A stretch of DNA of 35,769 bases. It comes from Bacteroidales bacterium (GTDB lineage Bacteria; Bacteroidota; Bacteroidia; Bacteroidales; UBA932). The stretch covers positions 1 to 35,769 of the forward strand of contig JAGCCX010000051.1 of the NCBI GenBank assembly GCA_017651465.1. The letters are read 5' to 3'. Both the position numbers and the translations under genes were made by a program. This document shows, one piece after another, positions 13,885-19,857 of this stretch (position 1 is its first letter; each line of letters starts with the position of its first letter). The notes beneath the pieces were generated by a model. The model had not been told where the DNA came from, made no database searches, and worked only from the letters and a program-made list of their open reading frames with translations.

Positions 13885-16503
13885 ATGAAACTTTTCCTCG
13901 TTGACGGCCACGCGCTCGTTTTCAAAATGTATTATGCCTTCCTGGGGCGCCCTATGGTCAATTCCAAGGGTCAGGATACATCCATTCTGTTCGGTTTTAC
14001 AAAGTATCTTCTGGAACTTATCGACAGGGAGAACCCTACTCACATCGCGGTGAGTTTCGACCCTCCCGGAGGTACGTTCCGCAATCAGCTGTACCCAGCT
14101 TACAAAGCCAACCGCAGTGAAACTCCGCAGTTGGTGATCGACGCCCTCGAGCCCCTGACTTCCATCGTCAAGGCCCTGGATATTCCGGTGCTGATGATAA
14201 AGGGTTTCGAGGCGGACGATGTGATAGGCTCTATGGCCCTGCGCAGCGCAGCGGAGGGCTTTGAGGTGTATATGGTTACCCCCGACAAAGATTACGGCCA
14301 GCTGGTAGCCCCTCACATCTGGCAGTACAAGCCGGGTAAGTCCGGCGCCGACAACGAGATACTCGGGCCCGAAGACATCTGCCGGAAGTGGGGAATAGAA
14401 CGCCCCTCGCAGGTAATCGACATCCTCACGCTGTGCGGAGACTCTTCCGACAACGTGCCCGGCGTACAGGGCGTCGGCCCCGTGGGAGCCTCCAAGCTAC
14501 TGCTTAAATACGGTTCCGTCGAGGATATCTACTCCCACCTCGGCGAGCTTACCCCGCGCCAGAAGGCTCTCTTTGAGGCGGCGCGCGACCATATAGCTCT
14601 CTCTCAGGAGCTTGTAACCATCAAGACCGACGTGCCTCTGGAAGCTACGGCTGATGATATGGTACTCGACCTTGCCTGGACTCCCGACGTAGAGGCCCTT
14701 TTCAAGCAGTTCGAATTCCCTTCGCTCATACGTCTTGTCCGAAAGATATCTGACCGAATAGGCAGCCGTGCCATAGCACCCGGCCCCGCGTCCGCCCCTT
14801 ACGAACACAAGCAGCCGGGAACTCCGGTAATCAGCGTTTCTCCCGCCGCCATTACCGACAGCAGAATCGCCGTACACCTTTGTGACGGAACGCTCTATGT
14901 TGCCGATTCTCACGGCGTTGCTTCAGGTGATCCTTCCGACTTCAAGCGCCTGCTCGAATCTCCGGCCATCACCAAGGCCGGCATAGCCCTAAAATCCCAG
15001 ATAAGGGAGCTACAGCTTGCCGGCATCGAAGTCAAGGGCCGCCTGGAAGACATAGAGCTGCTGCACTACCTGCTCAATCCCGAGAGCAGCCACAAGCTGG
15101 ACATCCTAGCATTCACGTACCTCGGGGCCGAGCTAGGAGCTCCTCCCGCCGAAGGCCAGGGATCCCTTTTCGACGAGGCTCCAGCAGGGCCCGACCGCAG
15201 CAAGGAGGCCTCGCTGCTGATTCCGCTTTCCGATGCCCTCCTGGCGGAGATGGACCGTACCGATGCGCGTCTTCGCGAGCTCTACGACAAGATAGAAGAA
15301 CCTATGCTCAAGGTGCTCTCCCGTATGGAGGCGGCCGGCGTGAAAGTTGACCTGGACGCCCTGCGCACCTACGCCGACTCTCTTCGCGAGCAGGCGGCCG
15401 CCCGTGAGGCGGAGGTGAGGAGCCTTTCCGGCGAGCCCGCACTTAACATCAACTCTCCCAAGCAGATAGGAGAGGTGCTCTTCGAGAAGCTCAAACTTGA
15501 CCCCAAGGCACGTAAGCCCCGCAAGGGCAACTGGCCCACCGACGAGAAGACCCTCCAGGAGCTCGCGGACAAGAGCCCCATCATAGAGGCCATACTCGAC
15601 TACCGGGGCCTGCGCAAGCTCCTTGGAACCTACATCGAGCCGTTCCCCTCGTACGTGAGCCCCCGCGACGGCCGCGTGCATACCACTTTCAACCAAGCAC
15701 TTACGGCCACAGGGCGCCTCTCCAGCTCCAATCCCAACCTGCAGAACATCCCCATACGCTCCGAGCAGGGACGAGAGATCCGCAAGGCCTTCGTTCCCGG
15801 AGCGCCCGGCTCGGTGATAATGAGCGCCGACTATTCTCAGATCGAACTCCGCATAATGGCGCACCTGAGCGGTGACGAGCATCTGTGCGCCGCTTTCCGG
15901 CAGGGCGTGGACGTACACGCAGCTACTGCCGCCAAGATATTCCACGTGCCCGTGGAAGAAGTGTCTTCCGACCGGCGCCGTATCGCCAAGACCGCCAACT
16001 TCGGCATTATGTACGGCATATCGGCGTTTGGCCTGAGCCAGAACCTCGGATGCTCCCGCAGCGAGGCCTCCCGTCTGATCGACGACTACTTCCGTTCGTT
16101 CCCCAGCATCCGCGCCTGGATTGACGCCACCCTCGCCTCCGCCAGGGCCAACGGCTATGTGGAGACGCTCCTTGGGCGCCGGCGCTATGTTCCCGACGTC
16201 AACAGCGGCAACGCCACCGTCCGTTCCTTTGCCGAGCGCAATGCCGTCAACGCCCCCATCCAGGGCACCAGCGCCGACATCATCAAACTGGCAATGGTGG
16301 CGGTGGACCGAAAGTTGCAGGAGGAGGGCCTGGGCGCCCGGATGGTGCTGCAGATTCACGACGAACTGCTGCTGGAGGTGCCGGAGGCCGAAATAGAAAC
16401 CGTACGCACCCTGCTGACCGACATTATGCAGGGCGTAATCAAACTGAATGTTCCACTAACAGTAGAATGCAATTATGGCTCAAACTGGCTCGAAGCACAT
16501 TGA
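13885..16503 (+). CDS. polA: DNA polymerase I with degenerate 3'-5' exonuclease domain
   Basis: The ATG at 13885 begins the natural N-terminus MKLFLVDGHAL; an in-frame TTG at 13873 lies inside the promoter -7 box and is rejected. The product is 872 residues. Residues 1-290 form the 5'-nuclease domain (FEADDVIG, TPDKDYGQLV, GDSSDNVPGVQGVG). Residues about 310-450 correspond to the proofreading domain but lack its metal ligands. Residues about 470-872 are the polymerase: motif A SADYSQIELR (about 647), motif B RRIAKTANFGIMYG (about 697), motif C QIHDELL (about 822). Phe is at the O-helix position that selects against dideoxynucleotides. It fills gaps in repair and Okazaki-fragment processing. 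The 3' end overlaps the sigma/alpha-galactosidase frame by 29 bp. Confidence 0.97.
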   Translation: MKLFLVDGHALVFKMYYAFLGRPMVNSKGQDTSILFGFTKYLLELIDRENPTHIAVSFDPPGGTFRNQLYPAYKANRSETPQLVIDALEPLTSIVKALDIPVLMIKGFEADDVIGSMALRSAAEGFEVYMVTPDKDYGQLVAPHIWQYKPGKSGADNEILGPEDICRKWGIERPSQVIDILTLCGDSSDNVPGVQGVGPVGASKLLLKYGSVEDIYSHLGELTPRQKALFEAARDHIALSQELVTIKTDVPLEATADDMVLDLAWTPDVEALFKQFEFPSLIRLVRKISDRIGSRAIAPGPASAPYEHKQPGTPVISVSPAAITDSRIAVHLCDGTLYVADSHGVASGDPSDFKRLLESPAITKAGIALKSQIRELQLAGIEVKGRLEDIELLHYLLNPESSHKLDILAFTYLGAELGAPPAEGQGSLFDEAPAGPDRSKEASLLIPLSDALLAEMDRTDARLRELYDKIEEPMLKVLSRMEAAGVKVDLDALRTYADSLREQAAAREAEVRSLSGEPALNINSPKQIGEVLFEKLKLDPKARKPRKGNWPTDEKTLQELADKSPIIEAILDYRGLRKLLGTYIEPFPSYVSPRDGRVHTTFNQALTATGRLSSSNPNLQNIPIRSEQGREIRKAFVPGAPGSVIMSADYSQIELRIMAHLSGDEHLCAAFRQGVDVHAATAAKIFHVPVEEVSSDRRRIAKTANFGIMYGISAFGLSQNLGCSRSEASRLIDDYFRSFPSIRAWIDATLASARANGYVETLLGRRRYVPDVNSGNATVRSFAERNAVNAPIQGTSADIIKLAMVAVDRKLQEEGLGARMVLQIHDELLLEVPEAEIETVRTLLTDIMQGVIKLNVPLTVECNYGSNWLEAH

Positions 16504-19231
16504 CGAACTTGTGCGGCGCGCAATCATAGGAGACGGCACCGCCTTCACCGCCCTGTGGGACGCCAACATCTCCTCCGTGCGCTCCTATCTGCGCAAAACG
16601 ATGACGCAGCTGGACCACTTTTACATCGAGGATGTGTGCTCCAAGACTTTCGAGAAGGCCTTCCGCCAGATCCGCAGCTTCGACCCGTCGCTGGGCAGTT
16701 TCGAGGCCTGGCTCGGGCGTATAGCGCACAACACGGCCCTGGATGTGATCGACCAGGAAAAGAGGCGCCAGAGGGGTTACATCTCTTTCGACGACGACCC
16801 CCGCACCCTCAACGTAGTGGATTCGATGGGCGGAGTTGAGGAGGATGCCCTCGACGAAATAATCAAGACCGAGGCGCGGGAAGAAACGGAATCGATGGTG
16901 GACGGCCTGCCGGAGATATACCGCGAGATAGCCCGCAAGCGCCTCATAGAAGGAATGCAGTACAAAGAAATAGCGGAGGAGACTGGTATCGAACTGAATA
17001 CGGTACGCACCCGTATCCGCCGCGCAAAACAAATGCTGGACAAAATGAAGAACCTTGTAATTACCATTCTTGCCCTCCTGGGCATATCGCTCCAGGGCCT
17101 GGCAGCCGACTACGACTACATCTCGGTATCCACCCGCAACACCTCCCTGATTATGTCAGGCAAGGCCGGGGGAGCGCTGAACTACCGCCATTACGGAGCG
17201 TCGGTGAGCAATGCTTCAGACTTTGCCGCCTATAATGCCTACACCGATTCGCATTCGGTAGGGGACGTGCAGATCTACCCCGCAGCCGGCGGACGCTTCG
17301 TATTCGAACCCGCCCTTGCCGTCAGCTATCCGGACGGAAGTCTCAACACCGAGCTGCTGTACGAATCGTACAAGCAGGAGGCGGCAGGCGAGGGAGTGAT
17401 ACGCACCACGGTTCAGCTGCGCGACTCCAGGCAGCCCCTCGGCGTCAGGCTGGTCTTTGAAGCTTATCAGGCCGAAGATGTGATACTTGCCCACGCCGAA
17501 ATCATCAACTCCGGCAAGAAGGCGGTGGTGCTGCGCGATTACTACTCTTCGTGCATCCCGCTGTACTCTCCCAAATACACCCTTACCCATTTCAACGGCA
17601 GCTGGGCGCACGAAAACTACATCGAGACCGAGCGCCTCACCCACGGAATCAAGACCATCGAGTGCCGCGACGGAGTGCGCACCACCCAGAGGTCGAATCC
17701 CTCGTTTATGCTGAGCCTCGATTCCGACACCCTGGACGAGACTCACGGCGATGTAATCGCCGGCGCCCTGTGCTGGAGCGGCAATTACAAAATCAACTTC
17801 CAGATGGACGAGGCAGGACGGCTGTACATCCTTTCCGGAATCCATCCTTCCGGAGCCGAATATACCCTTGCCGGTGGCGCCACCTTCGTAACTCCCGATA
17901 TGGTGTGGACTTACAGCACCTGCGGCGCAGGGCAGGCCAGCCGAAACCTGCACGACTGGGCGAGGGGCCATTCGATGTACGACTCTTCGATGCACTGTCC
18001 CACCCTGCTCAACAGCTGGGAGGGAGCGTATTTCTCATTCAACACCAAGACCCTTACCGATATGATGGACGACGCAGCGTCGATGGGACTTGAGATGTTC
18101 GTGCTCGACGACGGCTGGTTCGGCGAGGGCGAGTTCGCGCGCAACAACGACGATGCCGGCCTGGGCGATTGGGAGCTCAACAAAGCCAAGATCCCCGAGG
18201 GCATAGGCTATCTTGCCGACTACGCCCACGCCAAAGGCCTTAAGTTCGGTATATGGATCGAGCCCGAGATGGTCAATCCCAAGTCGCGCCTCTATCAGAA
18301 ACATCCCGAATGGGTGGTGGTTGAAAAAGGCCGTGAGGCATATACCTCCCGCAACCAGCTGCTGCTTGACCTCAGCAACCCCAAGGTGCAGGACTTCGTG
18401 TTCGATGTGTTCGACCGCACTATGCAGCTGGGCGATGTGGACTACATCAAATGGGACTGCAACCGCCACGTATTCAATGTGGGATCCAGCTACGAGGCCA
18501 ACCAGGCCAACTTCTGGGTGGATTACATCCAGGGCTACTACAAGGTGCTCGACCGCATCAGGGCCAAGTATCCCAAGGTGCTCCTGCAGTCCTGCTCGTC
18601 CGGCGGCGGAAGGATGGACTACGGCGTGCTCCGCCGGGCCAACGAGGTGTGGACCAGCGACAATACCGATGCATTCTGCCGTGCATATATGCAGTACGGC
18701 GCAAGCCTCATCTATCCCGTCCAGATCCTGGGTTCGCATATCTCCGCCACGCCCAACCATCAGACGGGTCGTATCCTGCCCCTCAAGTTCCGCTGCGATA
18801 TGGCCGCTACTGCGCGCCTGGGTATGGAGATCCAGCCCAAGCTCCTGAGCGATACGGAAAAAGACTACGTGCGCAAGTATATCGCCGCCTACAAGAAATA
18901 CCGCGACATCGTTTTCGACGGCGACCTGTACCGTATCGGCTCGCCCTACGACGGCAGCCACTACGCGCTGATGTACGTGAGCAAAGACAAGAGCCGCGCC
19001 GTGCTGTTCGCTTTCTGCCTCCAGTACGAGGGCAGGGGACTGACTCCCGAATTCCGTGCCGGAGGCCTTGATGCCGGCGCCAGGTACAAGGTTACCGAGA
19101 TAGCTCCCGTGGTCAAGTCTTTCTGGGGTGACGGAAAGGTGTTCGGCGGCGACTACCTGATGAATCACGGAGTCAATATGAACCTCAAACAGCCCCTGAC
19201 CAGTGCTGTGCTGCTGTTTGAACGCCAATGA
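16475..19231 (+). CDS. Sigma-70 (ECF-type) factor fused in frame to a GH36 alpha-galactosidase
   Basis: One uninterrupted frame encodes 918 residues with two unrelated modules. Residues 1-190 are a complete small sigma factor: region 2 (about 25-100, SYLRKTMTQLDHFYIEDVCSKTFEKA and AWLGRIAHNTALDVID) and region 4 (about 140-188, MVDGLPEIYREIARKRLIEG, then YKEIAEETGIELNTVRTRIRRAKQML helix-turn-helix). Right after it, at residue 191, comes MKNLVITILALLGISLQGLAA, a typical signal peptide, and then a full 728-residue GH36 enzyme. A true fusion would be a type II membrane protein with the sigma domain inside and the glycosidase outside. Alternatively two genes overlap at ATGA (17045-17048): the sigma stop TGA is present in the +1 frame and a single A decides. 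It overlaps polA by 29 bp and rsmG by 4 bp. Each module is sure; expression as one chain is uncertain. Confidence 0.7.
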   Translation: MAQTGSKHIDELVRRAIIGDGTAFTALWDANISSVRSYLRKTMTQLDHFYIEDVCSKTFEKAFRQIRSFDPSLGSFEAWLGRIAHNTALDVIDQEKRRQRGYISFDDDPRTLNVVDSMGGVEEDALDEIIKTEAREETESMVDGLPEIYREIARKRLIEGMQYKEIAEETGIELNTVRTRIRRAKQMLDKMKNLVITILALLGISLQGLAADYDYISVSTRNTSLIMSGKAGGALNYRHYGASVSNASDFAAYNAYTDSHSVGDVQIYPAAGGRFVFEPALAVSYPDGSLNTELLYESYKQEAAGEGVIRTTVQLRDSRQPLGVRLVFEAYQAEDVILAHAEIINSGKKAVVLRDYYSSCIPLYSPKYTLTHFNGSWAHENYIETERLTHGIKTIECRDGVRTTQRSNPSFMLSLDSDTLDETHGDVIAGALCWSGNYKINFQMDEAGRLYILSGIHPSGAEYTLAGGATFVTPDMVWTYSTCGAGQASRNLHDWARGHSMYDSSMHCPTLLNSWEGAYFSFNTKTLTDMMDDAASMGLEMFVLDDGWFGEGEFARNNDDAGLGDWELNKAKIPEGIGYLADYAHAKGLKFGIWIEPEMVNPKSRLYQKHPEWVVVEKGREAYTSRNQLLLDLSNPKVQDFVFDVFDRTMQLGDVDYIKWDCNRHVFNVGSSYEANQANFWVDYIQGYYKVLDRIRAKYPKVLLQSCSSGGGRMDYGVLRRANEVWTSDNTDAFCRAYMQYGASLIYPVQILGSHISATPNHQTGRILPLKFRCDMAATARLGMEIQPKLLSDTEKDYVRKYIAAYKKYRDIVFDGDLYRIGSPYDGSHYALMYVSKDKSRAVLFAFCLQYEGRGLTPEFRAGGLDAGARYKVTEIAPVVKSFWGDGKVFGGDYLMNHGVNMNLKQPLTSAVLLFERQ
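17045..19231 (+). CDS. GH36 alpha-galactosidase (internal start of the fused frame)
   Basis: If translation starts at the internal ATG 17045, the product is a standard 728-residue secreted alpha-galactosidase of family GH36, which releases terminal alpha-1,6-galactose from raffinose-type or mucin glycans. The signal peptide ends near GLAA. The N-terminal beta-supersandwich domain spans about 25-330; the TIM barrel carries VLDDGWFG, nucleophile Asp471 in YIKWDCNR, CSSGGGRMDYG, and acid/base Asp539 in WTSDNTDA, with spacing like characterised GH36 enzymes. The length matches stand-alone homologues, which supports this start. The sequence before it shows no Shine-Dalgarno site, which is normal in Bacteroidales. 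The 3' end forms an ATGA overlap with rsmG. Enzyme identity is sure; start choice is less so. Confidence 0.65.
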   Translation: MKNLVITILALLGISLQGLAADYDYISVSTRNTSLIMSGKAGGALNYRHYGASVSNASDFAAYNAYTDSHSVGDVQIYPAAGGRFVFEPALAVSYPDGSLNTELLYESYKQEAAGEGVIRTTVQLRDSRQPLGVRLVFEAYQAEDVILAHAEIINSGKKAVVLRDYYSSCIPLYSPKYTLTHFNGSWAHENYIETERLTHGIKTIECRDGVRTTQRSNPSFMLSLDSDTLDETHGDVIAGALCWSGNYKINFQMDEAGRLYILSGIHPSGAEYTLAGGATFVTPDMVWTYSTCGAGQASRNLHDWARGHSMYDSSMHCPTLLNSWEGAYFSFNTKTLTDMMDDAASMGLEMFVLDDGWFGEGEFARNNDDAGLGDWELNKAKIPEGIGYLADYAHAKGLKFGIWIEPEMVNPKSRLYQKHPEWVVVEKGREAYTSRNQLLLDLSNPKVQDFVFDVFDRTMQLGDVDYIKWDCNRHVFNVGSSYEANQANFWVDYIQGYYKVLDRIRAKYPKVLLQSCSSGGGRMDYGVLRRANEVWTSDNTDAFCRAYMQYGASLIYPVQILGSHISATPNHQTGRILPLKFRCDMAATARLGMEIQPKLLSDTEKDYVRKYIAAYKKYRDIVFDGDLYRIGSPYDGSHYALMYVSKDKSRAVLFAFCLQYEGRGLTPEFRAGGLDAGARYKVTEIAPVVKSFWGDGKVFGGDYLMNHGVNMNLKQPLTSAVLLFERQ

Positions 19232-19857
19232 GAACCAGTCAAGCCGATTTTGCCCGCGCCGTAGAGCTCTACCGGGAATGGAACGAGCGCATCAACGTGG
19301 TGTCACGTAAAGACATAGACCATCTTTACGAGCATCACATCCTGCACTCCCTGGCCATCGCCCGCTACCTGGAACTGCATTACGGGAGCCAGGCGCTGGA
19401 GGGGGCGTCGGTGCTGGACCTCGGCACCGGGGGAGGATTTCCGGGCATTCCGCTTGCCTTGGAGTATCCCGGCGCTTCTTTTACGCTCTGCGACTCGATT
19501 GCAAAGAAGATAAAAGTGGCGCAGGCGGTAGCCGACGGGCTGGGCCTTGCCAACGTCCGCTGCGTCAACGCCCGCGCCGAGAGCCTGGGGGTGGACTTCG
19601 ACTGGGTGGTGACCAGGGCCGTGGCCTCGCTCGAAGACCTGTACCCTTGGGTGAAGGGGCGTTTCCGCCGCAGCATTCTGTGCCTGAAAGGGGGAGACGT
19701 GGCCTCGGAAATTGCCGTTTTGGGCCGCCGTTTCGGCGTGGATAAGGGCCGCGTGAGAGTTTGGAGCATAGAAGATTGGCTTAAAGACGATTATTTCAAA
19801 GAAAAATTTGTAATTGAAATTGGAAAATCTTACCTTTGCCCTCCCAAATCTGATTAA
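19228..19857 (+). CDS. rsmG: 16S rRNA (guanine-527-N7)-methyltransferase
   Basis: The 209-residue protein is RsmG (GidB), which methylates G527 of 16S rRNA using S-adenosylmethionine. It shows the family N-terminus (WNERINVVSRKDIDHLYEHHILHSL) and the SAM loop VLDLGTGGGFPGIPLA (about residues 60-75), then LCDSIAKKIKVA and VTRAVASLEDL. Length is normal. Its start overlaps the alpha-galactosidase stop (ATGA, 19228-19231). The rpmH promoter lies inside its last codons. Confidence 0.95.
   Translation: MRTSQADFARAVELYREWNERINVVSRKDIDHLYEHHILHSLAIARYLELHYGSQALEGASVLDLGTGGGFPGIPLALEYPGASFTLCDSIAKKIKVAQAVADGLGLANVRCVNARAESLGVDFDWVVTRAVASLEDLYPWVKGRFRRSILCLKGGDVASEIAVLGRRFGVDKGRVRVWSIEDWLKDDYFKEKFVIEIGKSYLCPPKSD
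19807..19838 (+). promoter_or_regulatory. rpmH promoter
   Basis: TTTG (19807-19810), a 20-bp spacer and TACCTTTG (19831-19838) match the Bacteroidales promoter exactly. It lies within the 3' end of rsmG, 35 bp before the rpmH ATG. Confidence 0.75.

Follow-up and report, generated by a model that had tools for sequence, protein, structure and literature searches.

The window, that is the whole stretch of 35,769 nucleotides analysed here, carries on its forward strand a single stop-free open reading frame at 16475-19231, which begins with ATG and runs for 918 codons (918 amino acids). The frame comprises, in order, an ECF-type sigma factor (codons 1-190), a signal-peptide-like stretch (191-210) and a complete GH36 alpha-galactosidase extending to codon 918. 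The end of polA and the start of the sigma factor share 29 nt, and 4 nt are common to the stop of the fused frame and rsmG. Pfam matches, all over the cut-off, were obtained for Sigma70_r2 (residues 28-97), Sigma70_r4_2 (136-188), GH36N (234-466), Melibiase (470-814) and GH36C (830-915). These matches and the uninterrupted frame confirm the first-pass annotation, which had described a sigma factor and a GH36 enzyme in one stop-free frame with a signal-peptide-like stretch from codon 191. The features of the locus are as follows.

13885-16503, forward strand: polA (DNA polymerase I), upstream neighbour, overlapping the sigma start
16475-17044, forward strand: ECF-type sigma factor part (regions 2 and 4), codons 1-190, without a stop codon
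16949-17032, forward strand: third-position-A stretch, codons 159-186, A kept in fused and mostly absent in unfused loci
17045-17047, forward strand: codon 191 ATG, predicted internal start of GH36
17045-17104, forward strand: signal-peptide-like stretch, residues 191-210, assigned from hydropathy and motif
17105-19228, forward strand: mature GH36 alpha-galactosidase, residues 211-918, if cut at 210/211
18455-18457, forward strand: codon for D661, aligned with AgaA Asp478, invariant in 13 of 13 fused loci
18659-18661, forward strand: codon for D729, aligned with AgaA Asp548, invariant in 13 of 13 fused loci
19228-19857, forward strand: rsmG, downstream neighbour, overlapping the stop of the fused frame

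The sigma part was assigned to the ECF type, with regions 2 and 4 only, from the sigma70-ECF model TIGR02937 of NCBIfam (E 9.3e-24, residues 23-190) and from the two Pfam domains given above. Its alignment with E. coli sigma E extends to residue 189, and the hydrophobic run begins about four residues further on, so that only three residues (MKN) lie between region 4 and the hydrophobic core. Nine Pfam families were matched, and no zinc-finger anti-sigma domain was among them.

The signal peptide was assigned from hydropathy and motif rather than by a dedicated predictor. The stretch 191-210 contains one Lys followed by an uncharged hydrophobic core at 194-206; the core is 13 residues long in 11 of 13 fused loci and 12 and 18 residues long in the remaining two. 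A small-x-small motif of the signal peptidase I type is present at 208-210 in all 13 (strict AxA in six), and suggests ordinary signal peptidase cleavage at about 210/211. The enzyme belongs to GH36 by matches over the cut-off to its N, catalytic and C domains (PF16875, PF02065 and PF16874, respectively). D661 and D729 align with D478 and D548 of AgaA, the structure of which has been solved, and both are invariant in the 13 fused proteins. Asp478 and Asp548 of AgaA are presumably the nucleophile and the acid/base, respectively. The GH36 catalytic residues are thus intact in the alignment, as in a predicted alpha-galactosidase.

Related genomes were searched for the same arrangement, conservation in relatives being the test that had been named beforehand. 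The full-length fusion was present in 11 of 400 genomes of the genus (own genome included), in open frames of 921-930 codons, and a scan of genome contigs gave 21 loci, 11 of them fused. Removal of identical loci left 13 distinct fused genomes from differently named isolates. The junction was the same in all 13: zero-gap and in frame, with 190 sigma codons and GH36 from codon 191. The stop between the modules that the first-pass annotation had named as evidence against a fusion was found in none of them. Both parts were recognisable over their lengths, and rsmG overlapped the end of the fused frame by 4 nt in every case. The sigma factor was matched at E 1e-45 or better in 155 of the 400 genomes; among the matches listed, the longest frames (921-930 codons) were those of the 11 GH36 fusions, followed by one of 257 codons. 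A family survey (249 genomes from 25 genera, own genus included) covered matches to the full fusion or to GH36. Ten genomes matched at E 1e-250; the sigma part was covered in the own genome only, and the other nine matches were GH36 alone. The relatives' records are metagenome-assembled or uncultured genomes. Rumen or omasum is named in three of the record titles of the 11 fused loci, and the RUG names of others presumably denote rumen genomes.

In seven close unfused relatives there is no GH36 at the locus: the sigma gene stops after 191-195 residues, and the next gene is rsmG, which overlaps it by 4 nt in five and is separated from it by 1 nt in two. The unfused sigma factor ends in DKMKN or DKMKS plus two residues in four of these seven (e.g., DKMKNEQ followed by a stop), and so ATG 191 is an ordinary sigma codon there and the start of GH36 in the fused loci.

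An open frame alone means little. As a control, seven further GH36 genes that are preceded by long open frames (L128-L134) were inspected, and the translations of those frames looked non-coding by eye. A further long frame (656 codons, locus L147 of genome G057) contains a weaker, different sigma factor that ends normally; the extra frame lies upstream and is antisense to a neighbouring gene, and this candidate was rejected as another sigma fusion. A chance open frame was likewise rejected for the locus in the window, since both coding parts are conserved. The fused frame is confirmed as real, as more than chance and as conserved in relatives.

Constraint on the coding parts was estimated in seven pairs of fused loci, where dN/dS was 0.019-0.098 for the sigma part (0.019-0.038 in six of the pairs), 0.046-0.099 for GH36 and 0.071-0.102 for polA; many dS values exceeded 1, and the estimates are hence rough. 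Three unfused pairs gave 0.023, 0.049 and 0.098 for the sigma factor. The sigma part is under purifying selection and in use in fused and unfused genomes alike, and the GH36 part was likewise shown to be under purifying selection. No close second copy of the sigma factor was found in the own genome, where the other matches to the sigma part had 22-38% identity. Because no stop codon follows the sigma part, translation from the sigma start can yield no reading-frame product but the fused chain. With the sigma part constrained and this sole product carrying the enzyme, the sigma-signal-enzyme product must either work as such or be processed.

Two loci stood apart. In L120 (4838-7591, genome G295) the sigma part is unusually diverged, with 76% identity to that of the window as compared with 81% for polA, and its dN/dS in the pair with L110 (0.098) is higher than in the other fused pairs; replacement by recombination or relaxed constraint is possible. 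Genome G327 (7% contamination) has two copies of the sigma orthologue with equal scores, on contigs C39 and C75, likely a duplicate or a mixed bin.

The bases before ATG 17045 were compared between 13 fused and 13 unfused loci. Shine-Dalgarno sequences are naturally absent in Bacteroidetes, and initiation in Flavobacterium johnsoniae is favoured by A at -3, -6, -12 and -13 (PMC6847099). A was found at -13 in 13 of 13 fused loci versus none of the unfused, at -12 in 13 versus seven and at -16 in 13 versus five, while -6 was G in all 26 loci and -3 was A in 13 fused and 12 unfused loci. Codon 186 supplies the A at -13 as CAA (11 fused loci) or ATA (two), and CAG is the commoner glutamine codon in the fused frames (21-28 versus 3-6 CAA per frame). 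When ranked by the fused-minus-unfused difference against the seven close unfused loci, codon 186 came first of 186 sigma codons.

Third-position A was then scanned over 607 eligible codons, codons 1-12 and 915-918 being left out because they overlap or adjoin the neighbouring genes. It was present in at least 12 of 13 rows at seven of the 607 codons (159, 162, 165, 166, 173, 185 and 186) and in at least 10 rows at ten codons, every one of which lies within 159-190. The corresponding hypergeometric p is 2.7e-10, a value that is indicative only, since the region was picked after looking and the sites share ancestry. The stretch 159-186 includes bases 17029 (-16) and 17032 (-13) of the internal start. 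The block of A at codons 159-173 (16949-16993, or -94 to -52) lies beyond the usual start region and might be a standby site or a cis element of another kind. Between -110 and -20 the mRNA was not consistently more open than its synonymous shuffles (fraction at or below 0.05 in three of 13 fused loci, mean 0.31).

Around ATG 191 itself, the mean fraction of synonymous shuffles at least as open as the native mRNA was 0.07 in fused and 0.33 in unfused loci, and the fraction was at or below 0.05 in 10 of 13 versus one of seven. Start-site bases together with open mRNA at codon 191 were thus specific to the fused loci, with three of the 13 (L110, L113 and L115) not reaching the 0.05 level for openness. 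As a positive control served the sigma start within polA, before which third-base A was raised at -20 to -8 (16, 9, 12, 12 and 20 of 20 loci). By contrast, only one such codon precedes the rsmG start (A at -6, 10 of 13), and in the 37 codons before it third-base A was present in 0-6 of 13 loci. The rsmG start can be reached by termination and restart, coupled through the overlap; an in-frame internal start is not fed by upstream termination and needs signals of its own, as seen here.

The amino-acid-corrected synonymous diversity was mildly low, at 0.79 of the expected value for codons 178-187 and 0.70 for codons 159-168, against a whole-frame standard deviation of 0.16 and with eight non-overlapping windows elsewhere lower still. 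On the tree, the fused/unfused contrasts number two on supported branches and four in all, and an independent-pairs test of the -13 trait, with its two supported contrasts, cannot reach significance. The A pattern could in part have been inherited with the insert; conservation of A beside variable synonymous sites argues against mere inheritance. Judged from these start-site signals, GH36 is probably also made alone from codon 191. The caution of the first-pass annotation that two overlapping genes were plausible was well placed, in that codon 191 appears to function as a separate start.

The history of the insert was examined in trees. In a tree of 32 rows the GH36 parts of the 13 fused loci form one clade (support 100/100), and the stand-alone GH36 enzymes of the genus (19 loci read) fall outside it, with 54-61% identity. 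A single clade of fused loci was rejected by the polA tree (AU p 0.0007) and by the sigma tree (AU p 0.0026), and was not rejected by the rsmG tree (p 0.38). In the polA tree, the unfused loci L112, L116, L117 and L118 group with the fused L111 and L119. The insert may have been gained once and lost at least once, or it may have spread by recombination; the pattern fits both. The nesting of unfused among fused genomes, which fits at least one loss, means that the fusion is not indispensable.

Other genes occupy the slot between sigma and rsmG in some relatives. In L124 (2955-6258) and L126 (6075-9384) the slot holds about 3.3 kb with glpABC-like genes by eye, and in L139 (1880-4190) transporter-like and HAD-like genes by eye; the first gene of these inserts overlaps a normal sigma stop by 4 nt. 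The slot in the polA-sigma-rsmG row is, as read from these gene orders, an apparent site of repeated insertion. Distant members of the genus (L141, L142 and L143, sigma identity 35-36%) still have the overlap between polA and sigma, with rsmG nearby. The pairing of this ECF sigma factor with DNA polymerase I is, by its gene order, apparently an old partnership.

Taken together, these observations were assembled into a proposal in which one stop-free frame would give two products, sigma-GH36 and GH36 alone, with signal peptidase cleavage followed by S2P-type release of the sigma factor; we put the chances of this scheme at about even. Ribosomes starting at 16475 would make the whole 918-residue chain, with the ECF sigma factor in the cytoplasm, the Sec signal peptide acting as an internal signal (N-in, C-out) and GH36 outside, whereas those starting at the internal ATG 17045 would produce GH36 preceded by an ordinary signal peptide at its N terminus. 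Signal peptidase I would cut at about 210/211 and GH36 would pass to the periplasm. The sigma factor would remain as a protein of about 210 residues anchored through the former signal peptide, its region 4 about four residues from the membrane; there it would probably bind promoters poorly until freed. To become active, the tethered sigma factor would first need cutting within the membrane (S2P/RseP type) or trimming of another kind, and its release would depend on export of the enzyme. Genes for signal peptidase (PF10502) and S2P (PF02163), the site-1 and site-2 proteases, respectively, that such a scheme needs, are both present in the own genome; the same genes are near-universal in the control genomes (S2P in 14 of 14, S26 in 12 of 14), so that their presence supports the scheme weakly. 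Precedents for both steps appear in two reports, one in which RseP cuts leftover signal peptides after loss of the mature part (PMC10470546) and one in which the site-1 protease of an anti-sigma factor is signal peptidase (PMC8844934).

A more specific version of the proposal is offered tentatively, and we consider it rather unlikely as a whole. In this version the sigma factor would be produced solely at the cytoplasmic end of a secreted enzyme. Its release by S2P would be licensed by successful export of the enzyme through Sec and by signal peptidase cleavage, perhaps together with substrate, and the nested start would set how much reporter is made relative to plain enzyme. If this is true, the sigma factor would act as a transcription factor that signals the secretion of the passenger it carries. 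Should the fused chain be produced, the sigma factor would be tethered by a former signal peptide, with no anti-sigma domain, and its freedom would depend on processing of the enzyme. The locus would then be a simple and testable example of a soluble regulator made membrane-linked by the insertion of a gene into a slot of its operon. Marks at synonymous sites, such as those of this in-frame start, might also be used to locate nested starts within fused genes of Bacteroidetes.

The best surviving alternative, which we regard as possible and on the doubtful side, is that the two genes are simply nested and the fusion is tolerated: GH36 would be made mainly from codon 191, the insert would have landed in frame, and the sigma factor would work tailed or trimmed, with no use in signalling. 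It draws on the same evidence for the internal start, on the other genes that the slot has taken in relatives, where sigma has its stop and the overlap is 4 nt, and on the unfused genomes nested among fused ones in the polA tree, which fit at least one loss. Against it, a single base change, for example in codon 190 (AAA in 11 of 13), would create a stop at the cost of few residues and is absent from all 13 loci, and the sigma part is still constrained even though its sole reading-frame product carries the enzyme.

The one-protein glycan-sensing switch put forward in the first-pass annotation is also possible, and we judge it improbable. Here the anchored GH36 would sense alpha-galactosides and substrate-triggered cleavage would free the sigma factor. 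The real fused frame upholds the first part of that proposal and the topology fits; there are also parallels in the outer carbohydrate-binding domain proposed to control the ECF52 protein SCO4117 and in the RsgI sensor domains that control SigI. The 13-residue core (11 of 13) and the small-x-small motif (13 of 13), however, resemble a cleavable signal peptide and point to ordinary signal peptidase cleavage; the intact catalytic residues mean that a role as an enzyme suffices, and an internal start would also yield enzyme without any sensor function.

A programmed +1 slip at AAA-ATG-A, giving a TGA stop and free sigma factor beside the fusion, was rejected as very improbable: AAAATGA occurs in 11 of 13 fused loci, but the run is broken in L109 (AAG ATG) and L111 (AAT ATG), and ATGA follows anyway from the start codon and Lys192. 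An assembly or base-calling error joining two genes, for which the metagenomic or uncultured origin of the relatives' genomes might speak, is refuted for practical purposes by an identical junction, free of indels, in 13 distinct genomes.

The arrangement was compared with known systems. In the searched literature, most subscription journals being outside its scope, no sigma-glycosidase or sigma-GH36 fusion was found described apart from one statement on ECF52 and ECF53. The earlier remark that no such fusion had been described has to be amended accordingly: a review reports glycosyl hydrolase domains in some ECF52 and ECF53 proteins, predicted computationally and without experimental validation (PMC10766802). 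Actinobacterial ECF52 proteins combine a zinc-finger domain with membrane helices and a carbohydrate-binding part, and ECF53 proteins are expected to be alike (PMC8999054, PMC10766802, PMC5826349). Like these proteins (e.g., SCO4117), the fusion would combine an N-terminal ECF sigma factor, a membrane segment and a carbohydrate-related outer domain in one chain, and release by proteolysis has been proposed for them. The hydrophobic core and GH36 may correspond to their transmembrane segment and outer domain, with the reservation that the segment is perhaps cut as a signal peptide. Unlike the fusion, ECF52 and ECF53 proteins possess an anti-sigma domain of the zinc-finger type, and reports of ECF52 are confined to Actinobacteria. 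The fusion has instead an MKN link, a cleavable-looking signal peptide, a complete GH36, a predicted internal start and a Bacteroidales host.

Likenesses to other systems concern single features. In SigI/RsgI of Clostridium thermocellum the sigma response is tied to an outer CBM or GH10 domain, and autocleavage, RseP and ClpXP are involved (PMC12203970). The outer domain is there carried by the anti-sigma factor and not by the sigma factor. The bearer of the GH10 domain we take to be RsgI6. In IutY (ECF243) of Pseudomonas putida the sigma factor carries a membrane extension from which Prc/RseP proteolysis releases it, the extension differing in being an anti-sigma domain for siderophore signalling with no enzyme (PMC8999054). 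In RsiP-type activation, signal peptidase acts as the site-1 protease in sigma activation, its substrate there being the anti-sigma factor (PMC8844934). The stand-alone GH36 enzymes of Bacteroidales (the 19 loci above) are the same enzyme with, by eye, a mostly signal-peptide-like N terminus, and differ in being without the sigma part. By layout, the nearest known kind would be the actinobacterial ECF52/53 sigma factors, the fusion apparently combining the same order of parts with the anti-sigma feature missing.
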